Source: Winogradskyella sp. (GTDB lineage Bacteria > Bacteroidota > Bacteroidia > Flavobacteriales > Flavobacteriaceae). From it: a stretch of 38,291 nt of DNA. Below, piece by piece: positions 20,221 to 38,291 of this stretch (within the stretch, counting starts at the first letter, position 1; every line of letters starts with the position of its first letter). A program made the translations under genes and the position numbers. Below the pieces are notes generated by a model. The model had not been told where the DNA came from, did not search any database, and worked only from the letters and a program-made list of their open reading frames with translations. The DNA lies in contig JABDKL010000065.1 of assembly GCA_013002225.1 (NCBI GenBank), positions 1-38,291 on the forward strand. Reading direction: 5' to 3'.

Positions 20221-21027
20221 TTAAAATTTTGACAACCAATTATAGGCCGCTGGAAATTGTGACATCCATAGCGCCTCATTATGTTGTCCGCCTTCAATAA
20301 TATAATTTGCAAGATGATCGTCTTTGACACCTTTAGTTTTTAATAGCTTCACCATGCGTTGATGATCGGGCACCATATCGTCTCCTTCTTCACTTCCTAT
20401 AACAAAATAAAACTTTGAAGAATTAGATATTTCTGATGCTTTTACTAAATCATAAATCTCCTCACTCACCCAAAACGAAGCAGAAAAAACACCGGCTTTA
20501 CCAAATGTTTCCGGATATTTAATTGCCGCATAAAATGATATTAAACCACCTAAAGAGGCACCAAGAATTGTGGTGTGTTTAGCCTCAGCCTTTGTTCTGT
20601 AGGTCACATCGACGTGTGGCTTTAAGGTGTTTTTTAAGAAATTAAGATAAGCTTCGCCTCTACCACCTCCAAATTCCGCATGTCTATAAGGTGTAAGCTC
20701 CTCAATCCTGTTTTCATTGCCGTGTTCAATACCAATAATAATACTTTTGTGTTCTTTTAGAGTATCCATAAATTCATCTACTTCCCATTCTCCTATATAA
20801 GAAGACTCTTTATCAAACAAATTCTGAGCGTCATGCATGTACAAGACAGGGTAGCGTTTATCAGAATTTTGATAATCTTTGGGTAGGTAAACCCATATTG
20901 TTCTTATCGTATCCAGCTGAGGAGCTTCAATAGTAAATTTGCTAACTTGCTCAGAAGCAGTGCTTTGCGGGAATGATTTATTAAAAAACAAGATTGTAAA
21001 TAATAGACCTAAATACTTCAATTTCAT
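20221..21027 (-). CDS. Secreted esterase-D-like alpha/beta hydrolase
   Basis: A 268-residue exported hydrolase. The signal peptide (MKLKYLGLLFTILFFNKSFP) starts at the ATG at 21027; a TTG at 21075 would add 16 non-signal residues and is rejected. The mature enzyme has VYLPKDY, VLYMHDAQNLFD, the nucleophile elbow GASLGG (Ser158), an acid in GSEEGDD (216-217) and the catalytic His in GGQHNEALW (His249). This set fits the Esterase D / enterochelin-esterase-like family, which cleaves carboxylic or siderophore esters. The substrate is unknown. Confidence 0.87.
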   Translation of the reverse strand: MKLKYLGLLFTILFFNKSFPQSTASEQVSKFTIEAPQLDTIRTIWVYLPKDYQNSDKRYPVLYMHDAQNLFDKESSYIGEWEVDEFMDTLKEHKSIIIGIEHGNENRIEELTPYRHAEFGGGRGEAYLNFLKNTLKPHVDVTYRTKAEAKHTTILGASLGGLISFYAAIKYPETFGKAGVFSASFWVSEEIYDLVKASEISNSSKFYFVIGSEEGDDMVPDHQRMVKLLKTKGVKDDHLANYIIEGGQHNEALWMSQFPAAYNWLSKF

Positions 21028-21124
21028 AAGACCTATAGTTTTATGGGTTGACAAACGAATAAAAAAATCGACCAAGTACGCTCAATTTTTCGACAAGATA
21101 CATTATATCTACGACAATAAAATA

Positions 21125-21571
21125 ATGAACCTCTTTAACTTTACAGTAACAAGTAATACCCTCAAAAACATGATAAATCGTGCTGAAAAATTGAGTTTGT
21201 TATCTGAAATGATAGCATTTGCTCAAACAGATGAAAATATAAAAACCATTGAGTATAACTTCTTATTTAGTATAGCCAGACAATTAGATATATCTAAAGA
21301 AGATTTTGAATATCTCTTTGAGCATCCCGTAACTTATGTGCATCTAAAGACACATAGTGAAAGAATCGTTCAGTTTCACAGGTTAGTATTACTTATGAAC
21401 TTAGATCATAAGGTGTCTCCCAAACAACTTGTTAAAATTCATAATTTTGGTCTTAGAATGGGGTTAAGCCATGAGTCGATTAATCGTGTACTAGATTTAA
21501 TGGACAGTTTTCCAAATAAAATCGTACCTCCAGATTTTCTTATAGATATTTTTAAAGTACAGTATAATTAG
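21125..21571 (+). CDS. TerB-like conserved cytosolic protein
   Basis: A 148-residue all-helical protein. Segments such as AEKLSLLSEMIAFAQTDENIKTIEYNFLF, ARQLDISKEDFEYLFEHP and GLRMGLSHESINRVLDLM look like the TerB-type helical fold used in tellurite-resistance-like and many unrelated proteins; the assignment is by pattern only. I choose the ATG at 21125; another ATG at 21170 is possible. The frame extends further upstream to 20939, but that part lies over the start of the divergent esterase gene and is rejected. Confidence 0.68.
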   Translation: MNLFNFTVTSNTLKNMINRAEKLSLLSEMIAFAQTDENIKTIEYNFLFSIARQLDISKEDFEYLFEHPVTYVHLKTHSERIVQFHRLVLLMNLDHKVSPKQLVKIHNFGLRMGLSHESINRVLDLMDSFPNKIVPPDFLIDIFKVQYN

Positions 21572-21621: not shown

Positions 21622-23628
21622 TTATTTCACTTTTAATTTTTCCAGCTTACTCTGATAAGCTGTGATCTCATCTCTAAAGCGAGCAGCTTCCATAAAATCT
21701 AAGGCTTTCGCTGCTTGTTCCATCTGTTTACGTGTGTCCCTAATTTTCTTTTCGAGCTGACTTTTAGTTAAATATTCGCTTTCAGGTTCAGCAGCTAATT
21801 TAGCCTCCAATTCTGTTCTATAAGTACTTACAGAGTTTTTAGCCAAAGCACTATCTAAACTTTTATTGAGGGCCTTTGGTGTAATATTATGTTCCGTGTT
21901 ATAAGCAATTTGTTTTTCACGTCGGTAGTTCGTTTCATCGATGGTTTTTTGCATACTACTGGTAATTTTATCAGCATACATAATGGCTTTACCGTTTAAG
22001 TTTCTAGCAGCTCTACCAACAGTTTGAGTTAAGGAGCGGTTAGATCGCAAAAACCCTTCCTTATCTGCATCTAAAATAGCCACTAAAGACACTTCAGGCA
22101 AATCCAAACCTTCCCGAAGCAGATTTACACCAACCAAAACATCAAAGACACCCTTACGCAAATCTTGCATAATCTCAACACGTTCCAAAGTGTCTACATC
22201 ACTATGTATGTAGCGGCATCGAATAGATATACGTGTTAAATATTTTACCAACTCTTCAGCCATGCGCTTTGTGAGGGTCGTCACAAGTGTCCTTTCGTCC
22301 TTTTCTACGCGAGTTTGAATTTCTTCAATTAAATCATCAATTTGATTTAAACTAGGTCTAACCTCAATAACCGGATCTAATAAACCTGTAGGTCTAATGA
22401 CTTGTTCAACATAAACACCATCTGTTTTTTGCATTTCGTAATCTGCAGGTGTTGCACTGACATAGATAACCTGATTTTGAAGCGCTTCAAACTCTTCAAA
22501 TTTTAAGGGTCTATTATCCATAGCAGCAGGCAAACGGAAACCATAATCTACTAAGTTTACTTTACGGCTTCTATCGCCACCATACATAGCATGAACTTGA
22601 GAAATGGTTACATGACTTTCATCTACAACCATAAGGTAATCATCAGGAAAATAATCCAGTAAGCAGAATGGTCTTGTGCCTGGTGCTCTACCATCTAAAT
22701 ATCTGGAATAATTCTCAATTCCAGAGCAGTAGCCTAATTCACGAATCATTTCCAGATCAAATTCGGTCCGTTCTTTTAGTCGTTTAGCTTCAAGATGTTT
22801 ACCAATATCTTTAAAATAATCGTGCTGTAAGACCAGATCATCCTGAATATCTTTTATGGCTCCATTCAATACATCTGGTGAAGTCACAAACATATTTGCA
22901 GGATAAATATTTAAACGGTCGTAGCGTTCTATGATTTCGTTGGAATGGGCGTCAAAAGCTTCAATTTCTTCAATTTCATCACCGAAAAAATGAATTCTAA
23001 ATGCATGGTCTGCGTAACCCGGAAAAACATCTACCGTATCACCTTTAATTCTAAAATTACCATTTTTAAAATCGGCTTCAGTTCTGGAATATAGGCTTTG
23101 CACAAGCTTGTGTAGCAATTTTGTTCGGGAAATGACTTGGTCCCGTTCTAACGTAATTACATTTTTTTGAAATTCTATTGGGTTACCAATTCCATAAAGA
23201 CAAGATACCGAAGCAACAACCAATACATCTCGACGACCAGAGAGCAGTGAAGAGGTAGTGCTTAATCGCATCTTTTCAATTTCTTCGTTTATCGATAAAT
23301 CTTTTTCTATATATACACCTGAAACCGGTATATAGGCTTCGGGTTGGTAATAATCATAATAGGACACAAAATATTCAACAGCATTCTCCGGAAAAAACTG
23401 TTTAAATTCGGAATACAGTTGTGCAGCAAGAGTTTTATTGTGTGCCAATACTAGCGTAGGCCGTTGTACTTTTTCTATTACATTTGCTACAGTAAAGGTC
23501 TTACCAGAGCCTGTGACACCCAGTAAGGTTTGATATTTTTCTTTTTGATCTATACCTTCAGCTAATTGTTTTATAGCTTCGGGCTGGTCACCAGTAGGTT
23601 TAAATTCTGATTCAATTTTAAAGCGCAT
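21622..23628 (-). CDS. uvrB: Excinuclease ABC subunit B
   Basis: A 668-residue helicase-like subunit of nucleotide excision repair that receives damaged DNA from UvrA and recruits UvrC. The N-terminus FKIESEFKPTGDQPEAIKQL is standard. Walker A GVTGSGKT is at 37-44, the beta-hairpin YYDYYQPEAYIP near 93-104, then VDESHVT, SATPADYE, the helicase motifs LREGLDLPEVSLV and QTVGRAARN, and a C-terminal UVR motif (EQAAKALDFMEAARFRDEI) that contacts UvrC. Full length. It is followed upstream, after 35 bases, by the first adhesin-like gene. Confidence 0.97.
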   Translation of the reverse strand: MRFKIESEFKPTGDQPEAIKQLAEGIDQKEKYQTLLGVTGSGKTFTVANVIEKVQRPTLVLAHNKTLAAQLYSEFKQFFPENAVEYFVSYYDYYQPEAYIPVSGVYIEKDLSINEEIEKMRLSTTSSLLSGRRDVLVVASVSCLYGIGNPIEFQKNVITLERDQVISRTKLLHKLVQSLYSRTEADFKNGNFRIKGDTVDVFPGYADHAFRIHFFGDEIEEIEAFDAHSNEIIERYDRLNIYPANMFVTSPDVLNGAIKDIQDDLVLQHDYFKDIGKHLEAKRLKERTEFDLEMIRELGYCSGIENYSRYLDGRAPGTRPFCLLDYFPDDYLMVVDESHVTISQVHAMYGGDRSRKVNLVDYGFRLPAAMDNRPLKFEEFEALQNQVIYVSATPADYEMQKTDGVYVEQVIRPTGLLDPVIEVRPSLNQIDDLIEEIQTRVEKDERTLVTTLTKRMAEELVKYLTRISIRCRYIHSDVDTLERVEIMQDLRKGVFDVLVGVNLLREGLDLPEVSLVAILDADKEGFLRSNRSLTQTVGRAARNLNGKAIMYADKITSSMQKTIDETNYRREKQIAYNTEHNITPKALNKSLDSALAKNSVSTYRTELEAKLAAEPESEYLTKSQLEKKIRDTRKQMEQAAKALDFMEAARFRDEITAYQSKLEKLKVK

Positions 23629-23632
23629 GGTG

Positions 23633-23664
23633 CAAAGTTACGATAAAGATAAACGCAAATCAAT
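23633..23664 (-). promoter_or_regulatory. Promoter of uvrB, very close to the start codon
   Basis: On the minus strand, ATTG (23664-23661), a 20-base spacer and a perfect TAACTTTG (23640-23633). The -7 element ends only four bases before the uvrB ATG, so the transcript would be nearly or fully leaderless. The -33 box has three of four expected bases and overlaps the end of the upstream gene. Confidence 0.5.
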
Positions 23665-26012
23665 TAACGCTTTAAAGCAAAATGTCCTGCGTAGACTTCG
23701 CCATCCAAGAATTTAGCAATATACCAATAATCACTACTTGGAAGGGGTTGGCCATTTAGAGTCCCATCCCATCCACCATTGAGTGTGGTATGTTCTGAAA
23801 GTAATTTACCGTAGCGGTTATAAATCTGTACATATTCTATCGCATTAAATTGCGAATTCGTACCAATAACACGCCAGGTATCATTACTGCCATCGCCATT
23901 AGGTGTAAAATATTTTGGAAAGCCTAAAACCGAAATTTCTTCTTCAATAACTTCACAACCGTTTCTATCTCTTATATAAACGGTATGAAAACCTTCTGTA
24001 ACATTTGTGAACATATTACTTTCCTGGTAAAATCCATTAATATCATCTAAAGCATAATCATATATGCCGTTACCAGAAACATTAATTGTTACCGTATTAT
24101 TTGGTGAAATGCCCTCGACCAAAATATTTTCTACACTAGCAGTTTCTGATGCTAATACAGTTATAGACCTGCTTGAAGCGCACCCATTAGGATCCGTGAC
24201 TAAAACAAAATATGTGCCCACTTCATTGGCCTCATAGAATGAAGTTGTAACATCGGTTAAACTACCATTGACAGACCACTCGTAAAAGTAATTGTTAGGT
24301 AAATCATTTAAAACGCCACCGTTTAAAGTAATTGTTTCCGGATAGGTATCAAGACAATAAAAAACCGTTTCATCCTCGTCTAAGATAGGAGTGTATAAAA
24401 CATTTAAATTTGCACTAGAGATACTAAAACACTGACTGTTATTTTCTACCTTAACAAATATGATTTGTGAATTTATACTTGTATTGGTATAGTTGTTTGG
24501 GAGCGGGTTAACGTCATTAAGTGCATCGTTTTCTGTTTCAAAATAAGAAACTTCAGATCCTGTTGGGATTTGGTTAATAATTGAACCTTTAATATCGCTT
24601 AAAATAAAGTTGGCATAACCATCTAAATTTTCGCCGTCACAGGCTTCTAAAACTGGTATTGAAATGGTATTATTAGAAATCTGCAACTCTAACTGAGCAG
24701 TAGCCTCGCAATTAGCCGGATTTATTATACGAGCAAACACTACCTGGTTAGGTATTGTATTTTCAAAATTGGTTGCCGTTGTTATGGCGTTGCTATTGTT
24801 ATTCGCGTCAGTTTCAGTTAGAAAAAAGTCTGTAACAATTAAGGCACTGTCTCCATTTGTAATAGCCTCTGAGGCATCATAGAGATTGTATAGTGTAAAG
24901 CCATCTTGGTTTAGATCACATTCTACCAGAATGGCATTTTGGACGTTGGGTTCTGGTGCATACTCAATTACCACCTCTCCATAAGAAACACAGGAATTAT
25001 TTAAACCTACTTCAACAGTATAGGTTCCTGGCGTTGTGACCTCATAAGTACCGCAATTTATGCAGCCTGCAGGCGTTGATTGTTCCAAAACGCCATTTCT
25101 ATACCAATCATAAGAAGGTGAACCAGATTGACTGGCGTTTAACTCTATAGTTTCGCCTTCACATAACGAATTTCCCGTAGCAATCAAACGGTTTGGACCC
25201 AGATCTGTTGATAGTTGAAAACTACCGGCCTCAAGAAATACAGCAGAGTCGTATCTGAAATTTTGTTCGTCGGCAATAACAAGCTTTACGTGGTAAGACT
25301 GATTTGGTACAACATTAGCGGTAGCGGTTAAAATTGCAGTCTGACCATTGAAGTTAATTGGCGAAACTGTATCATTATAACTACCAAAATAAGTTTCATT
25401 TTGAGGTGGGCAACTTCCGGGAACACCTGGTGTAACCGTAGTTGCTTTTACTGGAGTATTGGTATCTGGCACCAAGGCAATATTTTCATATTGATTCTGA
25501 CCCAAAGTAGGTTTTATTAGAAAACCAAACAAATCTGAAAACTGACAACTATTAGGGTTGTTTTCCTGATATTCTTCTGAAGCAAAAAGATATCTGAAAC
25601 TTACTTGTGAGGCTACAGAGGTAAAATCAAATTCTATTACCGTAGCATTTATGGTGTTGGTTTCATTTAATGCAAATTCTAAATCTGCATCACCTTCCCA
25701 ATTCGGTGCGTTATCATCACTCAGGCTATTATTTGGTCCCGGAACATTAGCTAAACGTCCTGTACTTAATACCAATCCACTTTGAAAAGGGAAGGAGGTA
25801 CCACTGGCATCAAAAAAACCAAAACTTTGATCTGAGCCATTAAAATCCCCACCTACAACATTTGTTACTGTAACATCTGTAATACAATCACTATCAATTA
25901 AAATGTCTTCTATGAGTTGTTGGGGTGTATAGGTTTGACTATCCACAACAATGTTTTGCGAATGTAGAACTACTGAAAATAATAAGGCAAATATAATTAC
26001 TATATGCTTCAT
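23664..26012 (-). CDS. Choice-of-anchor L protein with two repeats and T9SS type-B C-terminus
   Basis: A 782-residue secreted protein from the ATG at 26012 (a TTG at 26033 is rejected because it overlaps the promoter element at 26031-26038). Order of parts: signal peptide (1-18, ending LHSQ); choice-of-anchor L domain (about 20-265) with SGLVLSTG and FASEEYQENNPNSCQFSDLFGF; an Ig-like segment (about 280-350); two ~94-residue repeats from C365 and C458; an Ig-like segment and a SprB-like segment; and a gliding-motility-associated, T9SS type-B sorting domain beginning FPKYFTPNGDGSNDTW and ending GHFALKR. It is predicted to be exported through the type IX system and held at the surface or released. 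Ligand unknown. Confidence 0.9.
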   Translation of the reverse strand: MKHIVIIFALLFSVVLHSQNIVVDSQTYTPQQLIEDILIDSDCITDVTVTNVVGGDFNGSDQSFGFFDASGTSFPFQSGLVLSTGRLANVPGPNNSLSDDNAPNWEGDADLEFALNETNTINATVIEFDFTSVASQVSFRYLFASEEYQENNPNSCQFSDLFGFLIKPTLGQNQYENIALVPDTNTPVKATTVTPGVPGSCPPQNETYFGSYNDTVSPINFNGQTAILTATANVVPNQSYHVKLVIADEQNFRYDSAVFLEAGSFQLSTDLGPNRLIATGNSLCEGETIELNASQSGSPSYDWYRNGVLEQSTPAGCINCGTYEVTTPGTYTVEVGLNNSCVSYGEVVIEYAPEPNVQNAILVECDLNQDGFTLYNLYDASEAITNGDSALIVTDFFLTETDANNNSNAITTATNFENTIPNQVVFARIINPANCEATAQLELQISNNTISIPVLEACDGENLDGYANFILSDIKGSIINQIPTGSEVSYFETENDALNDVNPLPNNYTNTSINSQIIFVKVENNSQCFSISSANLNVLYTPILDEDETVFYCLDTYPETITLNGGVLNDLPNNYFYEWSVNGSLTDVTTSFYEANEVGTYFVLVTDPNGCASSRSITVLASETASVENILVEGISPNNTVTINVSGNGIYDYALDDINGFYQESNMFTNVTEGFHTVYIRDRNGCEVIEEEISVLGFPKYFTPNGDGSNDTWRVIGTNSQFNAIEYVQIYNRYGKLLSEHTTLNGGWDGTLNGQPLPSSDYWYIAKFLDGEVYAGHFALKR
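24357..24920 (-). repeat. Two tandem CDxDxDG-type protein repeats
   Basis: Residues 365-457 and 458-552 of the 782-residue protein. The units open CDLNQDG and CDGENLDG and have the second Cys about 70 residues in. They are homologous to the 11-unit arrays in the two neighbouring genes. Confidence 0.8.
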
Positions 26013-26090: not shown

Positions 26091-29000
26091 TTAACGTCTT
26101 AGCGCAAAGTGACCTGTGACTTGAAAGGATTGGTTATTACGATAAATTGTAGCACTGTACCAATAATTGCCAGCTGGCATTTTATTACCATTATAGGTTC
26201 CGTCCCATCCAAGAGAGTTTGAGTTCAATTCCTTTAATAATTTACCGAAACGATCATAAATATAAACTTTACTACCAGGCAATGTTTCTATTCCCGCAAT
26301 ATGCCAGGTATCAAAGTCACCATCGTTATTTGGTGTAAGGTGCTTTGGAGCATCAATAACCAAGACCACATGTGTTATTTGGGCACAACCATTCAGATCT
26401 CTTATAGTAACGGTATTGTAACCAATTGGGACATTATTAAAGATATTTGAGGTTTGAACGGTTAAATTATTTAGTTGATAACTGTAATTACCAATGCCGC
26501 TAACTGTAATAGTTATATTATTTGGGTCAGAGAAATCTATAGTTTCTACGACATCAATTGTTGCTGATTCTGATTCAGTAACAGCAAAAGATTCTGTAAA
26601 TACGCAACCCGACGAATTCGTCACTGTAACAGTATATGTGCCAGTTTCAAGAATCTCGATTTGAGGCGTTGTAGCGTTAGTAGACCATAAATAAGAATCG
26701 CCTGAGTTGCCAGTAGAAGCATTTACAATAAGTGGTAAATTATCCAAACAAATGACTTGGTCATCAATACTTAAGGTTGGCAGTGCATTTATAATTACAG
26801 AAAATTGAGTTGTACTAAAACATCCTGTTGTATTATTTTCAATTCGAGCGTAAATGACTTCGTTATGAGATGCTAAATAAGAATTCTTATCAATGTCATT
26901 TATACTCTCAATTGCGTTGTCTATAGAATTATAGTAGCTAACAGCATGTTCATTTATATTTTGATTACCAATAATAGAGTCATCTTGTTGCATTAGTGCT
27001 ACTTCCAATACACCATCGAAGTCATCGTCGCAGGCAATTATATTATTGAGAGGGTTAGCAAGAGGAGGCGAATTTATGACTAATTGAAATGGATATACAG
27101 CATAACACTTTGTAGTACTATATTCAACTCTGGCATAGAGCATTTGCGATGTAGTTGTGTACGTATAATTTGTATTAAGCACATTTTGGCCTGACGCTGC
27201 ATCGGCTTCAGAATTATAATAGCTAACCAAGACATTGAATGTATTCTCTAAAAGTATTGCATTAATCGCATCAAGATTTGTGCTATTTTCATCATTAGCA
27301 CATACATTGTAGACTTCAAAATCATGAATAGGAGGAGGTGTATTAAGGACGAGGTTAAAAGCAACTGAAATAAAACAACCAGTCGTTGTGTTGGTCACCT
27401 TAGCATATAGGGTTTGTGGGCTTGAGCTGTTTGTATAAGATTCAGGGGTTAGTATCTCGTTAATATTCGCGAATAAATCAGATTCACTTTCATAATAGCT
27501 AAATGTAATACCGAATTGACGGCCATTAAGGAGTAATAATTCTATTTCAGTTAAATCCCAGGTCTGTTCATAATTAAAATTGTTACCACAAGCTATCAAA
27601 GACTGTTCTAAGTTTATTGTCGGCAATGCCAATGCATTAATGTAAAATGAAACTACCTCAAAACAACCTGAGTCTACATTTAATATACGTGCATAAACCA
27701 ATTGTTGCGCAATAGAAGTCGTAAATGTTAGAGGTAAATTGTTGATGCCATTATTAGCATTAAAGGGTGTTAAGTGAAAACTAACCGCCAGGTTTTGTGG
27801 ACTTGCTGTAGTTATTTCTGATATTTTTTCGCTGAGATCTACAGTGACCATACCATTACTGTTATCGTCACAGGCAAACATATCTGTAGGTGCATTAAAT
27901 ATTGCATATTCCCGAACTTCTATTAAAAACGAACCTACCTTAAAACAACTATTTTCGTCGTTATTTTGGAGGCGGTAGTAAATTGTCTGTGGATTAGAAG
28001 CATTTTGGTAATCTATTGTTTTATCAATAGGATTTAAATTATTGTAAGCCTCATTTTCGGTTTCAAAATAGCGTACGTTCAAATGATCTTGAGAATTAAT
28101 AATTTCTGCATCTTTGGTTTCGAAAATAAAATTAGCCGATTGCGTAAAATCCTCTTGACATTGCGTGTAATCCCTTATTGGTACTAGTTGTGGGTCATTA
28201 TAAATTAAAACATCAAATCCTAAAATAAAAATACAGTTGTTTCCCGATTTGATTTTTACGAATATTTCTGTAGTTTCTGTCGAATAATTTTGAGGATTTG
28301 AAATAGCCCCAATATTACTTAATGCATTTTCGTATGAGCTAAAAAAAGTATAATTAAAATTTGAAAGTTCTTCTGAAATAATGGGTATTACAGTTTCGAG
28401 ATTTAAGGTTGCCATACCATCTTGATCTGCATCACAAATTATAATAGGCTCCAAAAGATTTTCATCTAGCGTATCAGAAATATTAACCAATAGTGAAGAA
28501 ATTTGAAAACAGCCTGTATTTGTATTAGTTATCCGAGTGTAAAACAATTGAATATCTCCAGGAACATCATAAGAATCTACCACTTCGTTTTGTTGATTAA
28601 TAGCATCACTTTCTGTTAGGTAAAACGCTACTTCAAAATTTGAAAGTCCTTCATTCACAACATATTTTAATGGGTTTATTGAGATTTGAGAGGTATTATC
28701 AATAGCATTATAGCTACCACAACTTGAGGTTTCTTTTGGTGGAAAGCTAGGTTTAGAATTTACTACCAACTTTACTTCAGAATCGTATTCACAGTTATAA
28801 GAGGTGCTATTGATAAATAGTGTTTGCTCATAGTCAGTCACTGTAAATGGTTGATTACGGTCTAAAGGATTTTGGTTATTAGCTCTGTCTTCCTCAGATT
28901 CGTAAAAGGTGATATCCATATTATAGCCACTCTGTAATTCGGTATGCACATCGTTTAAATTAAAATCGAAAACACCATCATTTGATGCATCATCACAACC

Positions 29001-30929
29001 TGTAGAAATTCTTTGCTCTTCGAGAACATTATACAATAGGTTTTTATGGAACTCAAGAGAAATTGTTGTTTCGCAGTAGGACTCTTCGAAAGATACTCCT
29101 ATAGGTAAGCTTTCCATAGCAGAAGTAATGGTATATAATCTTGGATTACCAAATATTGGGACAAGAACTCTAACGGTAGCACTTGGATACACTTCTTGTA
29201 ATTCTAAAATAGCTTCTTCTATATTAAAAGTTATTGGTGCGTTTTCATAAGTGTATGTGTTAGAACCTTGATTAAGATAATAGTCTGGTCGTACACATCC
29301 ATCGATTGTAAATTTTTCAATACCTAGATCTGGAGAGGTCAAGTAGTTAAAGTATACGCGTTCTAGGCTAAAACATCCTGTGGCAATGCTTTCAATCCTG
29401 GCGTGCATAAATTCAGGGAAACCCGTAAAGTCGGGATATTCGGTTAATTCATTGGTTTTATTTATCGCATCTGCTTCACTTAGGTAATAAGAAACATCAC
29501 TCGAATTATTATATTCAGATACTAGAGGGTCCAGGATATTTATATTTACGAATGTAAAATCAGACAATCTACCATCGCAGATATTTACTGTTATTTCAGC
29601 TGATGGTGGCGAATCATAAATTTGAAAGTTAAAGGTTCCCAATTGAAGGCAATCACCATTTATACTTTCAATACGCACAAAAATGGTTTCAGAGTCTTCC
29701 GAGTTTTGATAAACTTCACTTAAGGAGTTTATATTGTTTAGAGCATCGTCCTGAGTGAGATGATAAGTGATGTTATAATTAGTTGAGGGTAATTCTGCCA
29801 GAATTTCCGCGTCTTTTAGAGCACTGAAATTAAAGTCGTAGAGCCTATCACTTGGTGCAGGATCGCATACCTCAATGTCTGTTATGCGTGCTGCATTCTG
29901 AAATGGAACAATTTCAATCTCAATAGTATCTCCAAAATTGCAATTACCAGCAGCGGTAGGTATAGATATTTCCACACTATAAGTTCCCGATTGTAAAACT
30001 TGAAGTGTTGGGCTATTTTCGCCATTAATTAAACTGCCGTTTAAGAACCAATTGTAGATCGCAGAATTATTGTTAATAGCTGCATTTAATATAAGGTCAG
30101 TACCACAAACAGATTGATCTGGTCCTAAATCAATGGAGCCACCAAAATCCTGTGTTTCAATAAATACAGCAGAATCAAACCGTTCATCGATATGGTCTGC
30201 AATTACAAATTTAATATGGTAGGTCTCACCAGGAATAATATTGGTCTGGGATGTAAATACCTTAGTTAGACCATTAAAATTAGTATTACTGCCATTATAA
30301 CCTTGAAAATAGTCTTCGTTTTGTGCTGAACAAAATCCCTCAATATTTGGACGAATTGTATTTGTACTTACTAACGAATTGGTTTCTGGCACTAAGGCCA
30401 TATTGGTATAGGGATCCATAGATCCAGCAGGTTTGATAAGAATTGCAAAAACATCACTAAAATTACAGGGGTATGCTTGTTGATATTCTTCCGAAGCAAA
30501 AATGTATTTAAATGCTACAAAATCATTCGCAGATACAAAATCAAACGCTATGGATGTGGCATTGAGCGTTTGATCTATGCCAACTATGTCAAAAATATCA
30601 GAATCGGTTTCCCAATTGACGTCTCCATAACTTAAGTCCTGACCAATTATAGAATTGCCTGCGGTGGTAATACTGCCTGTTGATAAAATTATACCATTTT
30701 GAAGTGGAAAATTTGAATTTGCCTGTTGGAAAGTACCAAAACTGTTTATGTTATTGACAGCCCCATTTACTGGTGATGAAACATTGGAGACTGTAACACA
30801 ATTATCTCCAACTAATTCTTGTAATAGTTGTTGTGGCTGAGTTGAACTTTCTGTAATTACCTGCTGTGCATATGAACAACAAACATGCAAAGTGAAGAGG
30901 AGAAACGCATAAATACTTTCCTTTTTCAT
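26091..30929 (-). CDS. Giant 11-repeat choice-of-anchor L surface protein with T9SS type-B C-terminus (copy A)
   Basis: A 1612-residue secreted protein. The signal peptide runs to about residue 21 (CCSYA, then QQ). The choice-of-anchor L domain (about 22-262) has NGIILSTG and FASEEYQQAYPCNFSDVFAILI. An Ig-like segment (265-345) precedes eleven ~94-residue repeats from C355 to residue 1393. The 219-residue tail holds a PKD/Ig-like segment (YLWSTNATTPQIEILETG), a SprB-like segment and the type-B sorting domain (APKHLTPNNDGDFDTWH to GHFALRR). Unit 3 (545-644) has lost the CDxDxDG opening. It is a paralogue of the next gene, with the same architecture. Probably a surface adhesin; the ligand is unknown. 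Confidence 0.9.
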   Translation of the reverse strand: MKKESIYAFLLFTLHVCCSYAQQVITESSTQPQQLLQELVGDNCVTVSNVSSPVNGAVNNINSFGTFQQANSNFPLQNGIILSTGSITTAGNSIIGQDLSYGDVNWETDSDIFDIVGIDQTLNATSIAFDFVSANDFVAFKYIFASEEYQQAYPCNFSDVFAILIKPAGSMDPYTNMALVPETNSLVSTNTIRPNIEGFCSAQNEDYFQGYNGSNTNFNGLTKVFTSQTNIIPGETYHIKFVIADHIDERFDSAVFIETQDFGGSIDLGPDQSVCGTDLILNAAINNNSAIYNWFLNGSLINGENSPTLQVLQSGTYSVEISIPTAAGNCNFGDTIEIEIVPFQNAARITDIEVCDPAPSDRLYDFNFSALKDAEILAELPSTNYNITYHLTQDDALNNINSLSEVYQNSEDSETIFVRIESINGDCLQLGTFNFQIYDSPPSAEITVNICDGRLSDFTFVNINILDPLVSEYNNSSDVSYYLSEADAINKTNELTEYPDFTGFPEFMHARIESIATGCFSLERVYFNYLTSPDLGIEKFTIDGCVRPDYYLNQGSNTYTYENAPITFNIEEAILELQEVYPSATVRVLVPIFGNPRLYTITSAMESLPIGVSFEESYCETTISLEFHKNLLYNVLEEQRISTGCDDASNDGVFDFNLNDVHTELQSGYNMDITFYESEEDRANNQNPLDRNQPFTVTDYEQTLFINSTSYNCEYDSEVKLVVNSKPSFPPKETSSCGSYNAIDNTSQISINPLKYVVNEGLSNFEVAFYLTESDAINQQNEVVDSYDVPGDIQLFYTRITNTNTGCFQISSLLVNISDTLDENLLEPIIICDADQDGMATLNLETVIPIISEELSNFNYTFFSSYENALSNIGAISNPQNYSTETTEIFVKIKSGNNCIFILGFDVLIYNDPQLVPIRDYTQCQEDFTQSANFIFETKDAEIINSQDHLNVRYFETENEAYNNLNPIDKTIDYQNASNPQTIYYRLQNNDENSCFKVGSFLIEVREYAIFNAPTDMFACDDNSNGMVTVDLSEKISEITTASPQNLAVSFHLTPFNANNGINNLPLTFTTSIAQQLVYARILNVDSGCFEVVSFYINALALPTINLEQSLIACGNNFNYEQTWDLTEIELLLLNGRQFGITFSYYESESDLFANINEILTPESYTNSSSPQTLYAKVTNTTTGCFISVAFNLVLNTPPPIHDFEVYNVCANDENSTNLDAINAILLENTFNVLVSYYNSEADAASGQNVLNTNYTYTTTSQMLYARVEYSTTKCYAVYPFQLVINSPPLANPLNNIIACDDDFDGVLEVALMQQDDSIIGNQNINEHAVSYYNSIDNAIESINDIDKNSYLASHNEVIYARIENNTTGCFSTTQFSVIINALPTLSIDDQVICLDNLPLIVNASTGNSGDSYLWSTNATTPQIEILETGTYTVTVTNSSGCVFTESFAVTESESATIDVVETIDFSDPNNITITVSGIGNYSYQLNNLTVQTSNIFNNVPIGYNTVTIRDLNGCAQITHVVLVIDAPKHLTPNNDGDFDTWHIAGIETLPGSKVYIYDRFGKLLKELNSNSLGWDGTYNGNKMPAGNYWYSATIYRNNQSFQVTGHFALRR
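26751..29867 (-). repeat. Array of 11 protein repeats in copy A
   Basis: Residues 355-1393. Most units open with a Cys-Asp-rich motif (for example CDADQDG, CDDDFDG) and include a YYxSxxDA-like strand, an IYARIEN-like strand and a second Cys in TGCF. Unit 3 is highly diverged, and units 5, 9 and 10 have a weak opening motif. At the DNA level the units are too different to be direct nucleotide repeats. Confidence 0.85.
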
Positions 30930-30982
30930 TGGTTCTTTTCCAGAAATAATAGCCCTAGAGAAATCTTACTTTCTCTTTTTTT

Positions 30983-30995
30983 TATAAAGATAGGA
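30983..30995. repeat. 13-base motif TATAAAGATAGGA, copy 1
   Basis: It lies in the 127-base gap between the two giant genes and is repeated exactly at 36243-36255, about 60 bases past the upstream gene's stop in both places. Read on the minus strand it contains TATCTTTA, one base from the -7 consensus. Confidence 0.5.
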
Positions 30996-31056
30996 AAAGC
31001 AACCCAATGATTTGGGAATTAATTGGTTGTTTAGGTTAGAATGTAATTAATGATTG

Positions 31057-34000
31057 TTAACGTCTTAAGGTAAAATGGCCCTTGACTTCAAATGATTCAT
31101 TGTCTTTCTGAACCTTTGCTAAAAACCAATAATCACTAGCAGGCATTTTATTACCGTTATAAGTACCGTCCCAACCTGCAGTTGTTGCACTCAATTGTTT
31201 TAATAGTTTACCATAGCGATCGTAAATGTAGATTACTGTACCTGGTAAAGTTTCCACACCACTAATATGCCATGTGTCAAAATCGCCATCACCATTAGGT
31301 GTCATATGTTTTGGAGCATCGATAACAATAACTTCTTCAGTAACTTCAGAACAACCATTAATATCGATTACTGTAATGGTGTGGTACCCTAAACTAACAT
31401 TTTCAAAAAACGGAGATTCCTGAGGTTCTCCATTATCTAGTTGATAGAGGTAGTCACCAATTCCGCTTACTGAAATTGTAATATTATTTGGGTCTGAAAA
31501 ATCAATCGTTTCTGTAAATTCTATTGTAGCTGCTTCAGATTCAGAAACACTAAATGTTCTTGTATTTTCACAACCAAAATCACTGGTAACTGTGACCCAA
31601 TAAACGCCAACCTGAGTAATTGTAATTTCTGCACTTGTTTCACCAGTAGACCATAAATATTGATCTGTAGTGTTATTGGTATTGGCAGATACAATTAGTG
31701 GTAAATCATCTAAACATATAACCTGATCATTAATATTTATAACAGGCAGAGGATTTATGGTGACCTCAAATTGTGTAACGTCATAACATCCTGTACTATT
31801 GTTTTCAATTCTGGCGTAGATCATCTCGCTGTCAAAAGCCATATAATTTGTTTCTAATGGTTCTGTACCTTCCTCTGCTTGTAAAACAGAATTGTAATAA
31901 CTTACATGGTATTGTGCTGGGTTTTGGTTACCCAAAACAGATGCATCCTGTGTCGAAAGATCGAATTCTAAAATGCCATCAAAATCATCATCGCACGCCA
32001 TTAAACCGTTTGGTAAATTGGCAACAGGTAATGGGTTTACGCGTAAATTAAACTCATAAATGTAGAAACAGTGTGTCGTGCTATATTCAATACGAGCAAA
32101 TAGTGTATCATTAGTAGTTTGATAGGTGTAGTTGGTATCTAAACTGTTGGTGTTAGTATAGGCGTCGGTTTCATTAGAGTAATAACTAATCAATACATTA
32201 AAACTTTCCTCCATTAAAGCGTCATTGATTTCATTAAGGTCAAAACTATTTGTAGCATTTTCACATATCTGATATTCGCCAAAATTTTGAATAGGAGGAG
32301 GTAAGTTCACGGATAGTTCAATTGGTACCGTAACATAACAATTTGAGATTGTGTTTGTGATTTTCACAAATACAGTTTGTGGATTACTTACATTAATATA
32401 ATCTTCTGGATTAGATATGGCATTTGTATGGCTTTCAACATTTGCCATTGATTCGAAATAATTAATCTCAATATCGTCTTGTCTCACGTCTAAAATATCA
32501 ACTTCAGCTTGAGTGAGATCGAATGCTACAAACCCATCGTAATCAGTGTCGCATTGTACCATAGGTTGCGCTTCATTAACCTCAGGAACCTGAATGACAT
32601 TTAGCATAAAAGATGTTATAGAATTACAGATCGTACCATTATCTATTTGTACATAAATTTGTTGAGGATTTACGGTATTCGTAAAATTATCAGGAAGTGG
32701 GCTAATGCTGTTTTCTGCATTATATGCTGAGGTATAAAAAGTAATTGATAGATTATCGGATATCCCTTGCGAAATTTCAGCAGCTTTAGTTGTTAAATCG
32801 AAGGACTCAAAACCATCGTTAGAGGCATCGTCGCACACAAACCAATTCGATGGTTGATTATATTCTGGGTTTGTACCTACCTCTATGATAAAGTTAGAAG
32901 TGCCGAAACAATTTTGGTCGGTAAGATTCTCAACTCTTACATATATTGTTTGAGGATTGCTCACATTTTGGTAAGCATTATTTTTATCTATAGCATTGAT
33001 GCGATTTTCAGCATCACTTTGAGATCGGAAGTATAATACAGCCTTTCCTGGCTGGCCATTTAGTATTTCCGCATCCTTGGTATTAAATATAAAGTCAGCG
33101 AAATCATCGCTATTGTCTTCGCAAATTTTATAATTTTCGATAGGTTGAAAAACAGGTAATACATTAACAATAATAGAATATGTTTCTGTGCTATGACAAC
33201 CAGTTACGGTATTTTCTACACGTATATATATTAATTCTGTTTGAGCGTTATAGGAATTATTTTCGGTAATAGCGTTGGTGTTGCTATCCGCATCTGTTTG
33301 GCTATTATGAAAGGAGATAATACGCTCATTAGTATCTGTTACTACTTGCGGTATCGCATGGCTTAAATTTACTATGGAATAGCCATCCTGGTCGTCATCG
33401 CAAATAATGAGTGGTGAAGGTGCAGAAGTCACTGGCGCTTCCAAAACCGTAATATTAAATGCATTGACATCAAAACAACCAGTGCCGTTCGATTGAATTC
33501 GCGTAAATAAGGTAAACGGATTAGTGTTATTTGTGTAAAAGTTAGATAATACGTTTTCGTTTGCTTCTGCATCCTCCTCAGTTAGAAAATAACTTACTGT
33601 AAAGCCACTCATGCTGTCCGTGACTTCGTCATCAAATTGCGACAAATCTGTTGTAGTTAGACCATCTTGGTCTTCATCACAGACTGTTTGGTCTGCTATA
33701 GGTTCAAACTCATCAACACTAGTCAGGATTATTTCAATTTCTGCTACATCGTTACATGTATCACTTGCTAAGTATAAATAAAGTATCTGAGGGTTATTTT
33801 GTGGTGTATAAGTTACAGACTGATCTAGAGCGTTTGTTTGTGCATCTCTATCTGCTTCAGTTTCGTAAAAATCTACCGTCACATTTTCTAAGTCATTGAT
33901 TATGCCTGTGGCAATACTTTCTAGATTAAAATCTTCACTATTGTCGTTATCTACATCGCAACTCGAGATGTTGTTTATATTGGTTCCCGTAAGAAGTAGG

Positions 34001-35883
34001 TTAGTATGTAATTCTATAGTGGTTACAGAAGCACAACCCGTAGAATCATTTTCTACTCTTATGAAAACATTCTGCAATTCACTTTCACTGTTTTGGTAAT
34101 TGCTTTCGTTTGCTATTGGATTTGCACCATTAACAGCATCCTCGTAGGTTTCATGAAAACTTATGTTAACATCAGTTAAACCCTGAAGGACGTCATCAAT
34201 TATAGATGTTAAGTCAAATTCTGCAAACCCGTTATGGTCCTCATCACAAGCATCAATATAGTGTCGAGCTGTATTTATAACCGGGTTTTCCAATACAACT
34301 ATATCTAATGTAGTTGTGCTTATACAGCCCGATTGCGGGTTTTGAACACTCACATAAACTTGTTCGTTTGCGCTAGAATTTACATATGGCATAGGAAGTG
34401 GGTTACTTCCAGAGGCTGCATCAATTGATGTGGCGTGATAGGTAACCACAAGATTGGGTTGACCATTGGTTATTTCATTATCTTTTACTGATAAATCAAT
34501 AGTGGTGTACCCATCGGCAGTTGCATCGTCGCATACCTCTAAGGGTGTTGGATTTACAATAGAGGGTAATGAATTTACAACTAAATCGAAAGTCGAAAAT
34601 GCTAAACATCCATTATCAATGTCTTCTATCCTTACAAAGGTAGTCTGAGGATTGGAAGTATTTTGTATTGGTGTTAAAATAGGATTTAATCCATTTTGTG
34701 CATCACTACTCGTAAAATGGTATGAAATGGTATAATTTGATGAAGGAACTGAAGCTAATACTTCGGCGTTTTTAGTATTTAAATCAAAAGTTTCAACACC
34801 ATCATTACTGGTATCGTCACAAATTTGATAATCTGAAACGGGCTCCGAAGTTTGAGTCGAACTTAATGTAATAGTGACCTCATCTTCAATTGTGCAATTT
34901 TCACCTGATAACGGAATTGAAATTTCAACTCTATAATTTCCAGATTGTGTCACGTCTAATGTGGTTTGCACAGCACCTGCAATTAAATTATTATCGAGGT
35001 ACCAGCTGTATGTAGCCTGAGGGTTTTCTATATTTCCATCAAGCAATACATTGGTAGCACAGGTAGTGACATCCTCGCCTAAATCTACAGCGGCATTAAA
35101 ACTGTTGCCCTCTATAAAAACTGCAGAATCATAATTCTCATCGGTTTGGTCGGCAATGACAAGTTTAATTTGATATTGCACATTGGGTTGAATAGTCGCT
35201 GTAGCAGAAAGTACTGCTGTTCTTCCATTATAGTTTGTATCACCAACATTATAACCACCGAAAAATTCTTCGTTTGAAGCATCACAGAATCCTACGATTT
35301 CGTCATGCACAGTATTTGTATTAACAGGTGTTGCTGTGCCAGGTACAATAGCAATGTTGGTATAGGGATTTCCACTTCCGGCTTCGCGAATTAAAAAGGC
35401 AAATCCGTCTGAGTATTGGCAAGGAAAATTACCATAATATTCTTCTGACGCCAGAATATAATTAAACTGTATGGTGTTAGAAATAGAGGTAAAATTGAAC
35501 TCGATTGATGTTGCGTTCAATGTATTTGAAATACCCAAGGCAGTTTCTAAATCTGTATCTGTTGTCCAGCTAGAGTTACCATCGTTTAGCGTTGTATTAT
35601 TCTGTGTGTTACCACCTGAGTTTGCATTACCTGTAGAAAGAACTATCCCATTCGCAAATGGAAAATTTGATTCACCACGTTCAAAATAACCATAACTACC
35701 AATTCCTACAGAGTTTCCATTGTTGGGTGATGAAATATTGTTGACATCGACACAGCCTTGTATAAGCGTGTTTTCTACTAAATTTTGTGGGGAGACAGTG
35801 TTGTCTATAGTAATTTGTTGTGAAAATAAGAGGGAACTAAAAAGGCAAATAAAAACTATTAGGAAGCGATTGATCCAATTCAT
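31057..35883 (-). CDS. Giant 11-repeat choice-of-anchor L surface protein with T9SS type-B C-terminus (copy B)
   Basis: A 1608-residue paralogue of the previous gene. The signal peptide runs to about residue 21 (SSLLFS, then QQ). The choice-of-anchor L domain (about 22-262) has NGIVLSTG and LASEEYYGNFPCQYSDGFAFLI. An Ig-like segment (270-345) leads to eleven repeats, C355 to residue 1389, all eleven recognisable. The 219-residue tail matches copy A position for position: YLWSTGETSAEI, a SprB-like segment and a type-B sorting domain (APKHMTPNGDGDFDTWH to GHFTLRR). Export by the type IX system is expected. The function (adhesion, gliding or polysaccharide binding) is inferred only. Confidence 0.9.
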   Translation of the reverse strand: MNWINRFLIVFICLFSSLLFSQQITIDNTVSPQNLVENTLIQGCVDVNNISSPNNGNSVGIGSYGYFERGESNFPFANGIVLSTGNANSGGNTQNNTTLNDGNSSWTTDTDLETALGISNTLNATSIEFNFTSISNTIQFNYILASEEYYGNFPCQYSDGFAFLIREAGSGNPYTNIAIVPGTATPVNTNTVHDEIVGFCDASNEEFFGGYNVGDTNYNGRTAVLSATATIQPNVQYQIKLVIADQTDENYDSAVFIEGNSFNAAVDLGEDVTTCATNVLLDGNIENPQATYSWYLDNNLIAGAVQTTLDVTQSGNYRVEISIPLSGENCTIEDEVTITLSSTQTSEPVSDYQICDDTSNDGVETFDLNTKNAEVLASVPSSNYTISYHFTSSDAQNGLNPILTPIQNTSNPQTTFVRIEDIDNGCLAFSTFDLVVNSLPSIVNPTPLEVCDDATADGYTTIDLSVKDNEITNGQPNLVVTYHATSIDAASGSNPLPMPYVNSSANEQVYVSVQNPQSGCISTTTLDIVVLENPVINTARHYIDACDEDHNGFAEFDLTSIIDDVLQGLTDVNISFHETYEDAVNGANPIANESNYQNSESELQNVFIRVENDSTGCASVTTIELHTNLLLTGTNINNISSCDVDNDNSEDFNLESIATGIINDLENVTVDFYETEADRDAQTNALDQSVTYTPQNNPQILYLYLASDTCNDVAEIEIILTSVDEFEPIADQTVCDEDQDGLTTTDLSQFDDEVTDSMSGFTVSYFLTEEDAEANENVLSNFYTNNTNPFTLFTRIQSNGTGCFDVNAFNITVLEAPVTSAPSPLIICDDDQDGYSIVNLSHAIPQVVTDTNERIISFHNSQTDADSNTNAITENNSYNAQTELIYIRVENTVTGCHSTETYSIIVNVLPVFQPIENYKICEDNSDDFADFIFNTKDAEILNGQPGKAVLYFRSQSDAENRINAIDKNNAYQNVSNPQTIYVRVENLTDQNCFGTSNFIIEVGTNPEYNQPSNWFVCDDASNDGFESFDLTTKAAEISQGISDNLSITFYTSAYNAENSISPLPDNFTNTVNPQQIYVQIDNGTICNSITSFMLNVIQVPEVNEAQPMVQCDTDYDGFVAFDLTQAEVDILDVRQDDIEINYFESMANVESHTNAISNPEDYINVSNPQTVFVKITNTISNCYVTVPIELSVNLPPPIQNFGEYQICENATNSFDLNEINDALMEESFNVLISYYSNETDAYTNTNSLDTNYTYQTTNDTLFARIEYSTTHCFYIYEFNLRVNPLPVANLPNGLMACDDDFDGILEFDLSTQDASVLGNQNPAQYHVSYYNSVLQAEEGTEPLETNYMAFDSEMIYARIENNSTGCYDVTQFEVTINPLPVININDQVICLDDLPLIVSANTNNTTDQYLWSTGETSAEITITQVGVYWVTVTSDFGCENTRTFSVSESEAATIEFTETIDFSDPNNITISVSGIGDYLYQLDNGEPQESPFFENVSLGYHTITVIDINGCSEVTEEVIVIDAPKHMTPNGDGDFDTWHISGVETLPGTVIYIYDRYGKLLKQLSATTAGWDGTYNGNKMPASDYWFLAKVQKDNESFEVKGHFTLRR
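31717..34821 (-). repeat. Array of 11 protein repeats in copy B
   Basis: Residues 355-1389, averaging 94 residues. Typical openings are CDDASNDG, CDEDHNG, CDEDQDG, CDDDQDG, CDTDYDG and CDDDFDG. The second Cys follows at about 65-75 residues, often as TGC. The units align one-to-one with those of copy A. Confidence 0.87.
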
Positions 35884-36308: not shown

Positions 36309-38084
36309 TTAATAATTAACATACACCCAACCAATAATTGGTTTGTAATTTGAATCATTTAAGTTTAATATATAATAATAAGTGCCTACTGGTACCAGAT
36401 TTCCACTTGCATTAATTCCTTTGTTGATTAAACCTAGCCAAGGCTTATCATTATTGCCTTCAAAGACAATTTCACCATAACGATTGTAGATTTGCAGTTT
36501 ATGTTCTGTAAAAATATTATAAAGTCCTCCTATATTAAACCAGTCATTTATCGAATCATTATTTGGTGAAAATCCTTCCGGAATATTAGGTGGACAATTT
36601 TCTACATTTAATTGAAATTCTAAAATTTCGTAACAAGGTGGACGTTCTAGTCTTGCGTAGATGATGGTAGCGCTCGAACTATAATTACTTGGGTTTAGAA
36701 TACTATTTGTCTCATTCTCTAAATTGTTTAGGGACAAATAAAAGGCTATATCATCCTCGTTATAGGTAACACTTTCAAGTGAATCAAATAAATTAAAAGT
36801 TGCGTTGCCAAAACCTTTATTACAGTCTTTAAGTCCAGGCAAGACAGTTATTTCTGGAATAACCAATAACATAATTTCAGCAAAATCAGAATTATTTTCC
36901 TCGTTTGTTTCAGTTACTGTTCCTTCCATAGTTCCATTATCATCCACAATTGCATCGATACTAAAGCTTGAGTTTATTTCGTCAGGTATGGTTACAATTA
37001 CACTGCCACTTTCACTAGAGCCGATTGGTATAGCATTTTGTGTCTGGCTTTGTCCAACAAGTATATTGTTTATGTAAAAGGCAATTGGAGTATTTGAAGG
37101 TAAAACAGCGGTACTATTAAAATTATTAACTGTGTAGACGATTTCGACACGGTTGTCCCCACAGTCAGTATTATAATTATCAATTATTATGGTTGCATCT
37201 GGTAACTGGCTGTTTAACACCGTAATGATATTATTTACCATCACAAAATCCTGACCAGATGTTAATGTTATGGTTGCCGCCGTATCTCCAATGTTTATAT
37301 TATCCTGAATATTATATACATCAATATCCATATTATATAGATCTGTCGCTCCTGTAAAAGAATTAGTACCGTTAAATGCATTGTTAGGAGGATTTAATGG
37401 TAAATTACTTATAACATTACCATTAATAGTAAGCTGTTCGTTTATTGCCAGAGCACTATCACCTTCCCAGGCTATAAAACCAATTTTAGCGTCCTCATTA
37501 TCCAGAACATTAAGATTGTTTAAAGTAATATTGAGAATTGATGGGACGCTTTGTAAGCCATCATAAACATTGAGTTGATTAAGAGGTAAATTATCGTCCT
37601 GATAAATTATAGTTATAGCCCAACCTCCAAAATTTGTACCCGAACTACAAAAGGGGCCAATTACATCTGTTAGATCTAGGTCTGCTAGGGTGTATGTTGA
37701 GCTTTCAGAGGCTGCCACTATATCGGTAACGTCTGCGAAAGCAGCAAAAAAAACACGATTGCTGTCTAATGCATCGTCAAAGGAACGTTCAGCCATAACG
37801 GGAATTCCGTTAAGTGTAACATTTAAGTCGCCAGAACCAGAACCTGCCCAATATAAATAGGCAGCAATTACATTTTGAGTAGGGTTTAGATTAAGAAAAG
37901 CTGAAGAGGAGGTTTCAATAACACAAATGTTAGCTGGTCCGTTTTCTATAGTATTAAGTGTGTTACCAATAGCAGTATAATCGTACCTGCCATTAAATTG
38001 TTGAAACAAGGAAACATCCTGTGCAGATAATGTAGAAGTTATACAAAGTAACAGTAAGTACGATATGTAATTGAAGCGATTCAA
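36309..38084 (-). CDS. Secreted T9SS type-B protein with CARDB-like domain and TTG start
   Basis: A 591-residue exported protein with signal peptide YLLLLCITSTLSA (cut before QD). The N-terminal ~290 residues form a beta-sandwich-like region (VIAAYLYWAGSGSGDLNVTLNG, GTNFGGWAITIIYQDD, IGFIAWEGD) that I do not assign to a family. A CARDB-like segment follows (about 300-405; VEIVYTVNNFNSTAVLPSNTP). One diverged repeat of the adhesin type lies near 416-496. The C-terminus is a gliding-motility-associated domain (EGFSPNNDSINDWFNIGG) ending GWVYVNY and not in the -KR form of its neighbours. The start is TTG at 38084: no in-frame ATG lies between the upstream stop and the signal peptide. It ends well before the hairpin at 36051. 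Confidence 0.85.
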   Translation of the reverse strand: MNRFNYISYLLLLCITSTLSAQDVSLFQQFNGRYDYTAIGNTLNTIENGPANICVIETSSSAFLNLNPTQNVIAAYLYWAGSGSGDLNVTLNGIPVMAERSFDDALDSNRVFFAAFADVTDIVAASESSTYTLADLDLTDVIGPFCSSGTNFGGWAITIIYQDDNLPLNQLNVYDGLQSVPSILNITLNNLNVLDNEDAKIGFIAWEGDSALAINEQLTINGNVISNLPLNPPNNAFNGTNSFTGATDLYNMDIDVYNIQDNINIGDTAATITLTSGQDFVMVNNIITVLNSQLPDATIIIDNYNTDCGDNRVEIVYTVNNFNSTAVLPSNTPIAFYINNILVGQSQTQNAIPIGSSESGSVIVTIPDEINSSFSIDAIVDDNGTMEGTVTETNEENNSDFAEIMLLVIPEITVLPGLKDCNKGFGNATFNLFDSLESVTYNEDDIAFYLSLNNLENETNSILNPSNYSSSATIIYARLERPPCYEILEFQLNVENCPPNIPEGFSPNNDSINDWFNIGGLYNIFTEHKLQIYNRYGEIVFEGNNDKPWLGLINKGINASGNLVPVGTYYYILNLNDSNYKPIIGWVYVNY

Positions 38085-38121: not shown

Positions 38122-38291
38122 TTACCTTTTTATGGCAAAATGGCTGGTAAATGTTCTGCCATCCTGCAGTGTAACTTTAAACCAATAGTCGGTAGCAGGC
38201 ATTTTAGCATTATTTAGTGTGCCATCCCAACCAACACTTAGAGGATCTAATTCTTTAATGAGTTTACCATAACGATTAAAAATTAAAATAG
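38122..38291 (-). CDS. C-terminal fragment of another T9SS type-B surface protein
   Basis: The last 55 residues of a gene that continues past the right edge: ILIFNRYGKLIKELDPLSVGW and so on to TSHFAIKR, with stop at 38122-38124. The pattern YGKLIKEL, GWDGT, MPATDYWF and HFAIKR is the end of the type-B (gliding-motility-associated) sorting domain and is closest to those of the choice-of-anchor L proteins here. The 591-residue gene starts 37 bases beyond its stop on the same strand. Confidence 0.88.
   Translation of the reverse strand, partial: ILIFNRYGKLIKELDPLSVGWDGTLNNAKMPATDYWFKVTLQDGRTFTSHFAIKR

Follow-up and report, generated by a model that had tools for sequence, protein, structure and literature searches.

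Candidate stalk proteins of Winogradskyella with eleven ordered, diverged domains and an array length that changes mostly in threes

Nebulin and titin are eukaryotic muscle proteins, far longer than the bacterial proteins considered here and built of other domains. Multi-domain duplication blocks are already known, the clearest being the seven-domain block by which nebulin mainly changes its length (passages of PMC1553488), and titin has A-band super-repeats (PMC10665226). In bacteria, SprB has 6497 residues and a repeat number that varies between species (passages of PMC9950754). Excerpts of a further source (PMC12618676) place sprF immediately downstream of the SprB gene and describe three orphan type-B cargo proteins of F. 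johnsoniae that use one common shuttle, along with shuttle crosstalk for CTDs of high identity. A review describes heptameric hooks of Aureispira made from the T9SS-secreted protein GhpA (passages of PMC11205867). Among the matches listed from open-licence papers, none dealt with the family described below or with experiments on its proteins, and the term “choice-of-anchor L” had no match in such papers.

Here we describe two neighbouring proteins, A and B, encoded in a window of 38,291 nucleotides (the whole stretch of DNA that was analysed, from a Winogradskyella contig). On the minus strand, adjoining uvrB, the window carries four complete genes for type-B T9SS cargo, namely a 591-aa protein, B, A, and S. 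Protein A (1612 aa, 26091..30929) and protein B (1608 aa, 31057..35883) share one architecture: a signal peptide (recognized by eye), a choice-of-anchor-L head, 11 units, and a 219-residue C-terminal part with a type-B T9SS sorting domain. The head takes up residues 1–354 in both proteins (29868..30929 in A, 34822..35883 in B), with NF038133 matching residues 33–260 of A (E 2.1e-44) and 36–262 of B (E 2.2e-43). The array follows at residues 355–1393 of A (26751..29867; units starting at 355, 451, 545, 645, 737, 832, 924, 1020, 1114, 1210, and 1300) and at residues 355–1389 of B (31717..34821; units starting at 355, 451, 546, 642, 735, 828, 921, 1017, 1111, 1207, and 1297). The C-terminal part, with its stop codon, lies at 26091..26750 in A (TIGR04131 at 1525–1612, E 2e-30) and 31057..31716 in B (TIGR04131 at 1521–1608, E 1.4e-32). 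NF038133 scores 151.6, 148.2, and 161.0 bits in A, B, and S against a curated cut-off of 27 bits, and TIGR04131 scores 104.7, 111.6, and 104.9 bits against a cut-off of 35 bits; these domain matches make A and B type-B T9SS cargo proteins that bear a choice-of-anchor-L head. An earlier note on this DNA had read both proteins as 354 residues, 11 repeats, and 219 residues, and all of its counts are right: both arrays have their first repeat cysteine at residue 355, end at residue 1393 (A) or 1389 (B), 219 residues before the C terminus, and measure 1039 and 1035 residues. The position-specific motifs it had picked out likewise occur in both proteins, with FIFxTKDAEI in unit 7, TNYTYxTT and EYSTTxC in unit 10, and DR in unit 4. 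Unit 3 of A (28998–29297 of the window, minus strand) is degenerate and 100 residues long. The unit HMM gives only 10 matches in A and other arrays of its kind, as it does in some 11-unit arrays having a degenerate unit.

Protein S (782 aa from its ATG, 23664..26012, minus strand; an alternative TTG start gives 789 aa) has a head and C-terminal part as in A and B, with 2 units at 24357..24920. These two units have no clear partner in A or B, and we rejected any assignment of them to particular positions. Upstream in the cluster, and likewise on the minus strand, the 591-aa cargo (36309..38084) has one unit-like domain at residues 428–499; beyond it, the window end truncates another type-B cargo gene, of which the C-terminal end is present (38125..38291, minus strand). 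UvrB (21622..23628, minus strand) is the downstream neighbor. The order [4-unit][4-unit][1-unit][11-unit B][A or longer paralogues][2-unit S] UvrB recurs, complete or in part, among the loci of relatives. Of 127 loci, many of which stop short of its position, 70 include UvrB itself; this set contains some contigs twice and shows identical proteins once. At three loci (L046, L101, and L128) the strand that encodes S, with its 2 units, is not the one that encodes the rest of the cluster. Elsewhere in the window, at 20221–21571, an esterase-like frame (minus) and a TerB-like frame (plus) overlap by ~140 bases on opposite strands, and one of their starts may be too long.

The ~94-residue unit carries two cysteines, and the resulting 22 are invariant across 102 aligned arrays (alignment A1, covering 102 of 147 eleven-unit arrays, out of 114 picked for diversity); a disulfide within each unit is likely. 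AlphaFold2 predicts the typical unit as strand-helix-strand-helix followed by long strands, with a mean pLDDT of 89 and a pTM of 0.36 for the whole B array and a mean pLDDT of 92.2 and a pTM of 0.71 for B units 9–11. The starts of B units 3, 5, 6, 9, and 11 are often CDxDxDG-like, which resembles DxDxDG calcium-binding loops. We rejected any Pfam name for the unit, since nothing in the arrays of A and B exceeded the Pfam cut-off and triplets from 102 members gave scattered weak matches, with no family in more than 4. A Pfam family for SprB repeats exists, and neither A nor B matches it at E up to 1. Sequence searches of solved structures with a whole-array profile (E up to 1) or a profile of units 9–11 (E up to 10) returned no real match; we took four weak RNA-polymerase matches as chance.

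The two proteins are 41% identical overall and align along their length with 1% gaps. Units at the same position in A and B share on average 34.8% identity versus 23.5% for other A/B pairs, a sum that none of 200,000 permutations reached, and the identity is 20–27% when one array is slid against the other by one to five units. With the two sequences alone, the optimal assignment gives the A unit its same-numbered B unit at 8 of the 11 positions and permutes the other three (2, 6, and 8). We also compared two sets of profiles, one built from 32 proteins of the A clade and the other from 55 of the B clade. The clades were delimited by tree distance, and the A clade includes two or three in-paralogues of some genomes, so that “orthologue” is loose there. 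The best 11×11 assignment of these profiles is the identity, none of 200,000 permutations being as good, and the maximum lies on the diagonal in 10 of the 11 rows and 8 of the 11 columns. When 330 units, drawn from 15 A-clade and 15 B-clade proteins, are placed in one tree, the A and B units of a position together form a clade (support 0.87–0.997) at 9 of the 11 positions, the exceptions being 2 and 5. Because same-position units match in the assignments and in the 330-unit tree, the array most likely had its 11 units already when one gene gave rise to A and B, as the earlier note had proposed, and the position matching and near-gapless alignment support its further claim that neither protein has had a net gain or loss of units since. 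The tree it had suggested, of the units of A, B, and S, bears this out in part: sister pairs form at positions 1, 4, 6, 7, 9, and 11, and A10 and B10 lie next to each other at the root, where the long-branched A3 also sits, so that 6 or 7 of 11 positions pair across the proteins, whereas 3, 5, and 8 are unpaired and A2 groups with A5. Apart from this A2–A5 grouping in the 24-unit tree, units clustering within each protein, which would have spoken against the claim, were absent from the trees. A comparison of synonymous and non-synonymous divergence along the pair, also suggested there, is saturated and uninformative (pS 0.73, dS about 2.6).

Relatives of the two proteins are widespread. A first scan found a match at E up to 1e-80 in 77 of 149 genomes, including all 67 of the same genus, some of the matches being partial; the relatives named were mostly Winogradskyella and other Flavobacteriaceae. 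A wider scan of the family matched 137 of 397 genomes and 92 of 237 genera, with open frames of ~1606–1664 residues in most full-length matches among those listed. Loci from the first scan comprised one or two regions per genome, with three genomes (G044, G065, and G082) excluded for matches that seemed cut; the wider scan contributed 60 regions of the 137 matching genomes plus automatically given loci. Eight of these 60 yielded no new counted protein: three had already been counted, one was cut by a contig end at no fewer than 15 units (at least 15), one was in broken pieces, two with ~8 units had a head below threshold, and one, cut, reads nine units.

Counted by array length, the 264 distinct proteins that carry both the head and the C-terminal part have 11 units (184 proteins), 14 (18), 17 (7), 20 (1), 9 (4), 8 (1), 2 (47), or 1 (1), with one uncertain at about 18; none has 10, 12, 13, 15, 16, or 19. 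The relatives all come from searches with an 11-unit query, a choice that could leave very short arrays under-represented but would hardly affect those of 10, 12, or 13 units. Eleven units are present in 184 of the 216 proteins with at least 8, including relatives down to about 39–50% identity, and 215 of these 216 remain once near-identical proteins are merged. The forms with 8, 14, 17, and 20 units (27 proteins) each differ from 11 by a multiple of three, and residue totals are narrow within a class (1314–1320 for 14 units, 1592–1595 for 17). Nine units, two short of 11 and outside the series 3n+2, occur in 4 of the 216 and in two lineages, three genomes of one genus and a divergent relative. 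The loci concerned are L159, L214, and L215 in genus g14, and L220; a further one, L221, which is cut at its end and uncounted, also reads nine. With this divergent L221 among the nine-unit forms, it is the divergent members that obey the rule of three least. The fixed length proposed in the earlier note thus holds as a prevalence of 11 and fails as a constant, given the arrays of 8, 9, 14, 17, and 20.

The uncertain count belongs to a fourth choice-of-anchor-L protein of the same genome (G000, contig C77, 104875–112453), which has 2468 aa and an extra N-terminal region and gives 17.9 units by length, 16 by HMM matches, and 17 by cysteine spacing. Neighboring cluster genes (loci L035–L161) carry the same type of unit without a head, and their number is likewise frozen, with 4 units in 52 of 61, 6 in 5, and 2 in 3. 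One of these 61, L071:10695–14894, is an 11-unit frame that stops right after the array and has no C-terminal part. Because the head-less 4-unit neighbors differ by two, three is not a law of the 94-residue domain.

The step of three resides in one part of the array. In proteins with 14, 17, and 20 units, the order is 1–8 followed by [9 10 11] two, three, or four times, with a few ambiguous unit calls; the counterparts of this multiplied triplet lie at 26751..27590 in A and 31717..32553 in B (both minus strand). Across 121 segmentable arrays, a unit's best partner within the same protein stands at lag 3 in 440 cases versus 196 expected; 24 of 145 long arrays, A included, were not segmentable by HMM and are absent from the lag-3 and unit-order analyses. 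Within 11-unit arrays there is a weak signal of period 3 (permutation p 0.024 for A and 0.042 for B, which are not independent). The triplet 9-10-11 therefore behaves as a super-repeat in the longer arrays, where a lag-3 peak (at 14, 17, and 20 units) goes with copy number changing by whole blocks, within the limits set by the weak lag 3 of 11-unit arrays and by the nine-unit exceptions. A recent event is seen in a 17-unit relative (L072:10649–17182), which carries a fresh, in-frame duplication of three units; its lag is 837 bp and its length about one period, and the lag-3 units are 82–87% identical; in the 20-unit protein, lag-3 copies are 68/66% identical. Parsimony on a tree of the flanking domains, from which the 47 two-unit proteins and the one-unit protein were left out, counts 19 changes; 16 of them are by a multiple of three, whichever of three support cut-offs is applied (one protein, L075_861, was left out before tree building). 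A binomial with a one-in-three chance would give 7e-6 for this ratio, a figure on which we do not rely because the 19 changes are not independent draws: the inner triplet has a single origin, and losses and recombination can mimic gains.

That single origin comes from the 14-unit proteins of the B and C paralogue clades, whose inner units 11 and 12 each form one clade in the unit tree (support 0.84 and 0.999), with no clade for inner unit 10; these groupings give the inner triplet a single origin in the two paralogue clades. Where 11-unit proteins branch within groups of longer ones, some of them have therefore probably shed an entire triplet, and such losses are inferred at L046 and, at the 0.9 support cut-off, at L094. 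The same clades, together with the nine-unit forms outside the rule, fit the idea that the rule of three is mostly a historical accident, in which one old triplet duplication was inherited or exchanged and then lost on many occasions, without any general property as the cause. We regard this as a tentative reading of real weight, somewhat short of an even chance, for it has to accommodate separate events (the recent L072 duplication, the lag-3 copies of the 20-unit protein, and the 8-unit relative), and the inferred losses, too, are of whole triplets.

As to why the number is stable, units within one protein share on average 21% identity in A and 27% in B. Among 120 eleven-unit genes, compared with a floor of 14 bp, the longest exact DNA match between units is 18 bp and the median is 0 at every lag from 1 to 7; among 15 fourteen-unit genes, lag 3 has a median of 14 bp and a maximum of 21 bp and is the sole lag of 1–7 with a median above 0. 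With unit identity this low and exact matches of 18 bp or less, slippage is not expected, and copy number has probably been frozen since the diverged units share too little identical DNA. We consider it likely that these proteins carry an ordered stalk of eleven domains in which positions are orthologous, as the unit comparisons show for most of them, number is frozen by divergence, and changes come mostly through 9-10-11 triplets. In this mechanism, every position of the stalk would be an orthologous domain of its own; the domains would have diverged too far to recombine, which would freeze their number; and the triplet 9-10-11 would be a super-repeat still able to recombine, gained or lost as a block, so that a recombination register may underlie the steps of three.

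The earlier note had reasoned that repeat arrays change fast and that a fixed length therefore points to selection. The premise suits near-identical repeats and does not carry over to units as diverged as these; since copy number was probably frozen by divergence, fixity alone is no proof of selection. Selection for array length is possible, for instance if the stalk were a ruler that has to hold the head at a given distance, and if a rigid module of three domains tolerated no changes other than whole triplets. The retention of 11 units despite large divergence, the tight residue totals within each class, and the prediction of the triplet as a fairly ordered body are consistent with such a ruler; unit divergence by itself already predicts the stability, however, the neighboring head-less arrays vary by two units, and three genomes of one genus have nine-unit forms in common. 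On balance we think it somewhat unlikely. Rather unlikely, in our view, is a version in which three units constitute a mechanical module and selection tolerates whole modules only, giving lengths of 3n+2 (2, 8, 11, 14, 17, and 20) as in muscle rulers, perhaps through side-by-side assembly of chains as in GhpA hooks. Quite improbable is gene conversion between neighbors, by which homogenization and not shared array ancestry would give A and B their equal length: the two are adjacent paralogues, A units at positions 10 and 11 do not form separate clades within A+B in the 330-unit tree, and the last ~100 residues are 67% identical versus 41% overall, which fits some exchange at the C-terminal end, but separate A and B clades at positions 1–9, the low overall identity, and saturated synonymous sites indicate that the array as a whole is not being homogenized, so that conversion of units 1–9 is disfavored on these comparisons.

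If the ordered stalk described above is secreted as its sorting domain suggests, its shuttle would be encoded elsewhere. The window contig has no PorP/SprF-like gene, and six are found elsewhere in the genome. A SprF-like gene lies immediately downstream of the C77 paralogue, with which the last ~100 residues of B and A are 58% and 48% identical, respectively. Because of this identity, and of the shuttle sharing by orphan cargo and the crosstalk described for F. johnsoniae in the excerpts cited above, our best guess is that the C77-linked SprF-like shuttle serves A and B.

Bacterial surface repeats are usually regarded as fast-changing, whereas those of the A/B family have kept their identity across genera and change length mostly in threes. 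The family may thus offer a clean system for testing whether recombination or function sets the length of a domain array, and it points to an uncharacterized candidate stalk protein, possibly an adhesin, with a match, whole or partial, in 67 of 67 sampled genomes of the same genus.

Among known systems, the closest in behavior are the super-repeats of nebulin and titin, which are likewise ordered arrays of diverged domains with a length that changes by a multi-domain block; the block here consists of three bacterial beta-rich domains in a protein predicted to be secreted. NF038133 choice-of-anchor-L proteins are related through the domain carried by A, B, and S, but the NF038133 model covers the head alone. 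The closest solved fold, judged from predicted models, is GhpA: segments of this Aureispira protein are the top two Foldseek matches of the array model (E 8.3e-28) and the top five of the triplet (E 5.5e-9). These matches are modest (13–16% identity in most, triplet TMq 0.30–0.40 in the top five), and Ig and cadherin arrays rank next, so that part of the GhpA match reflects any string of beta-rich domains; no GhpA chain was found by sequence with the profile of units 9–11 (E up to 10) or of the whole array (E up to 1). With SprB and the other type-B T9SS adhesins of F. johnsoniae, A and B share the type-B sorting domain and a large size, and they would share a surface location. They differ from SprB in that the number of units is near constant across the family and every unit is different, and in that their cluster has no sprF-like gene within the window, in which respect they resemble the orphan type-B cargo of F. 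johnsoniae, whose shuttle is encoded elsewhere (excerpts of PMC12618676).
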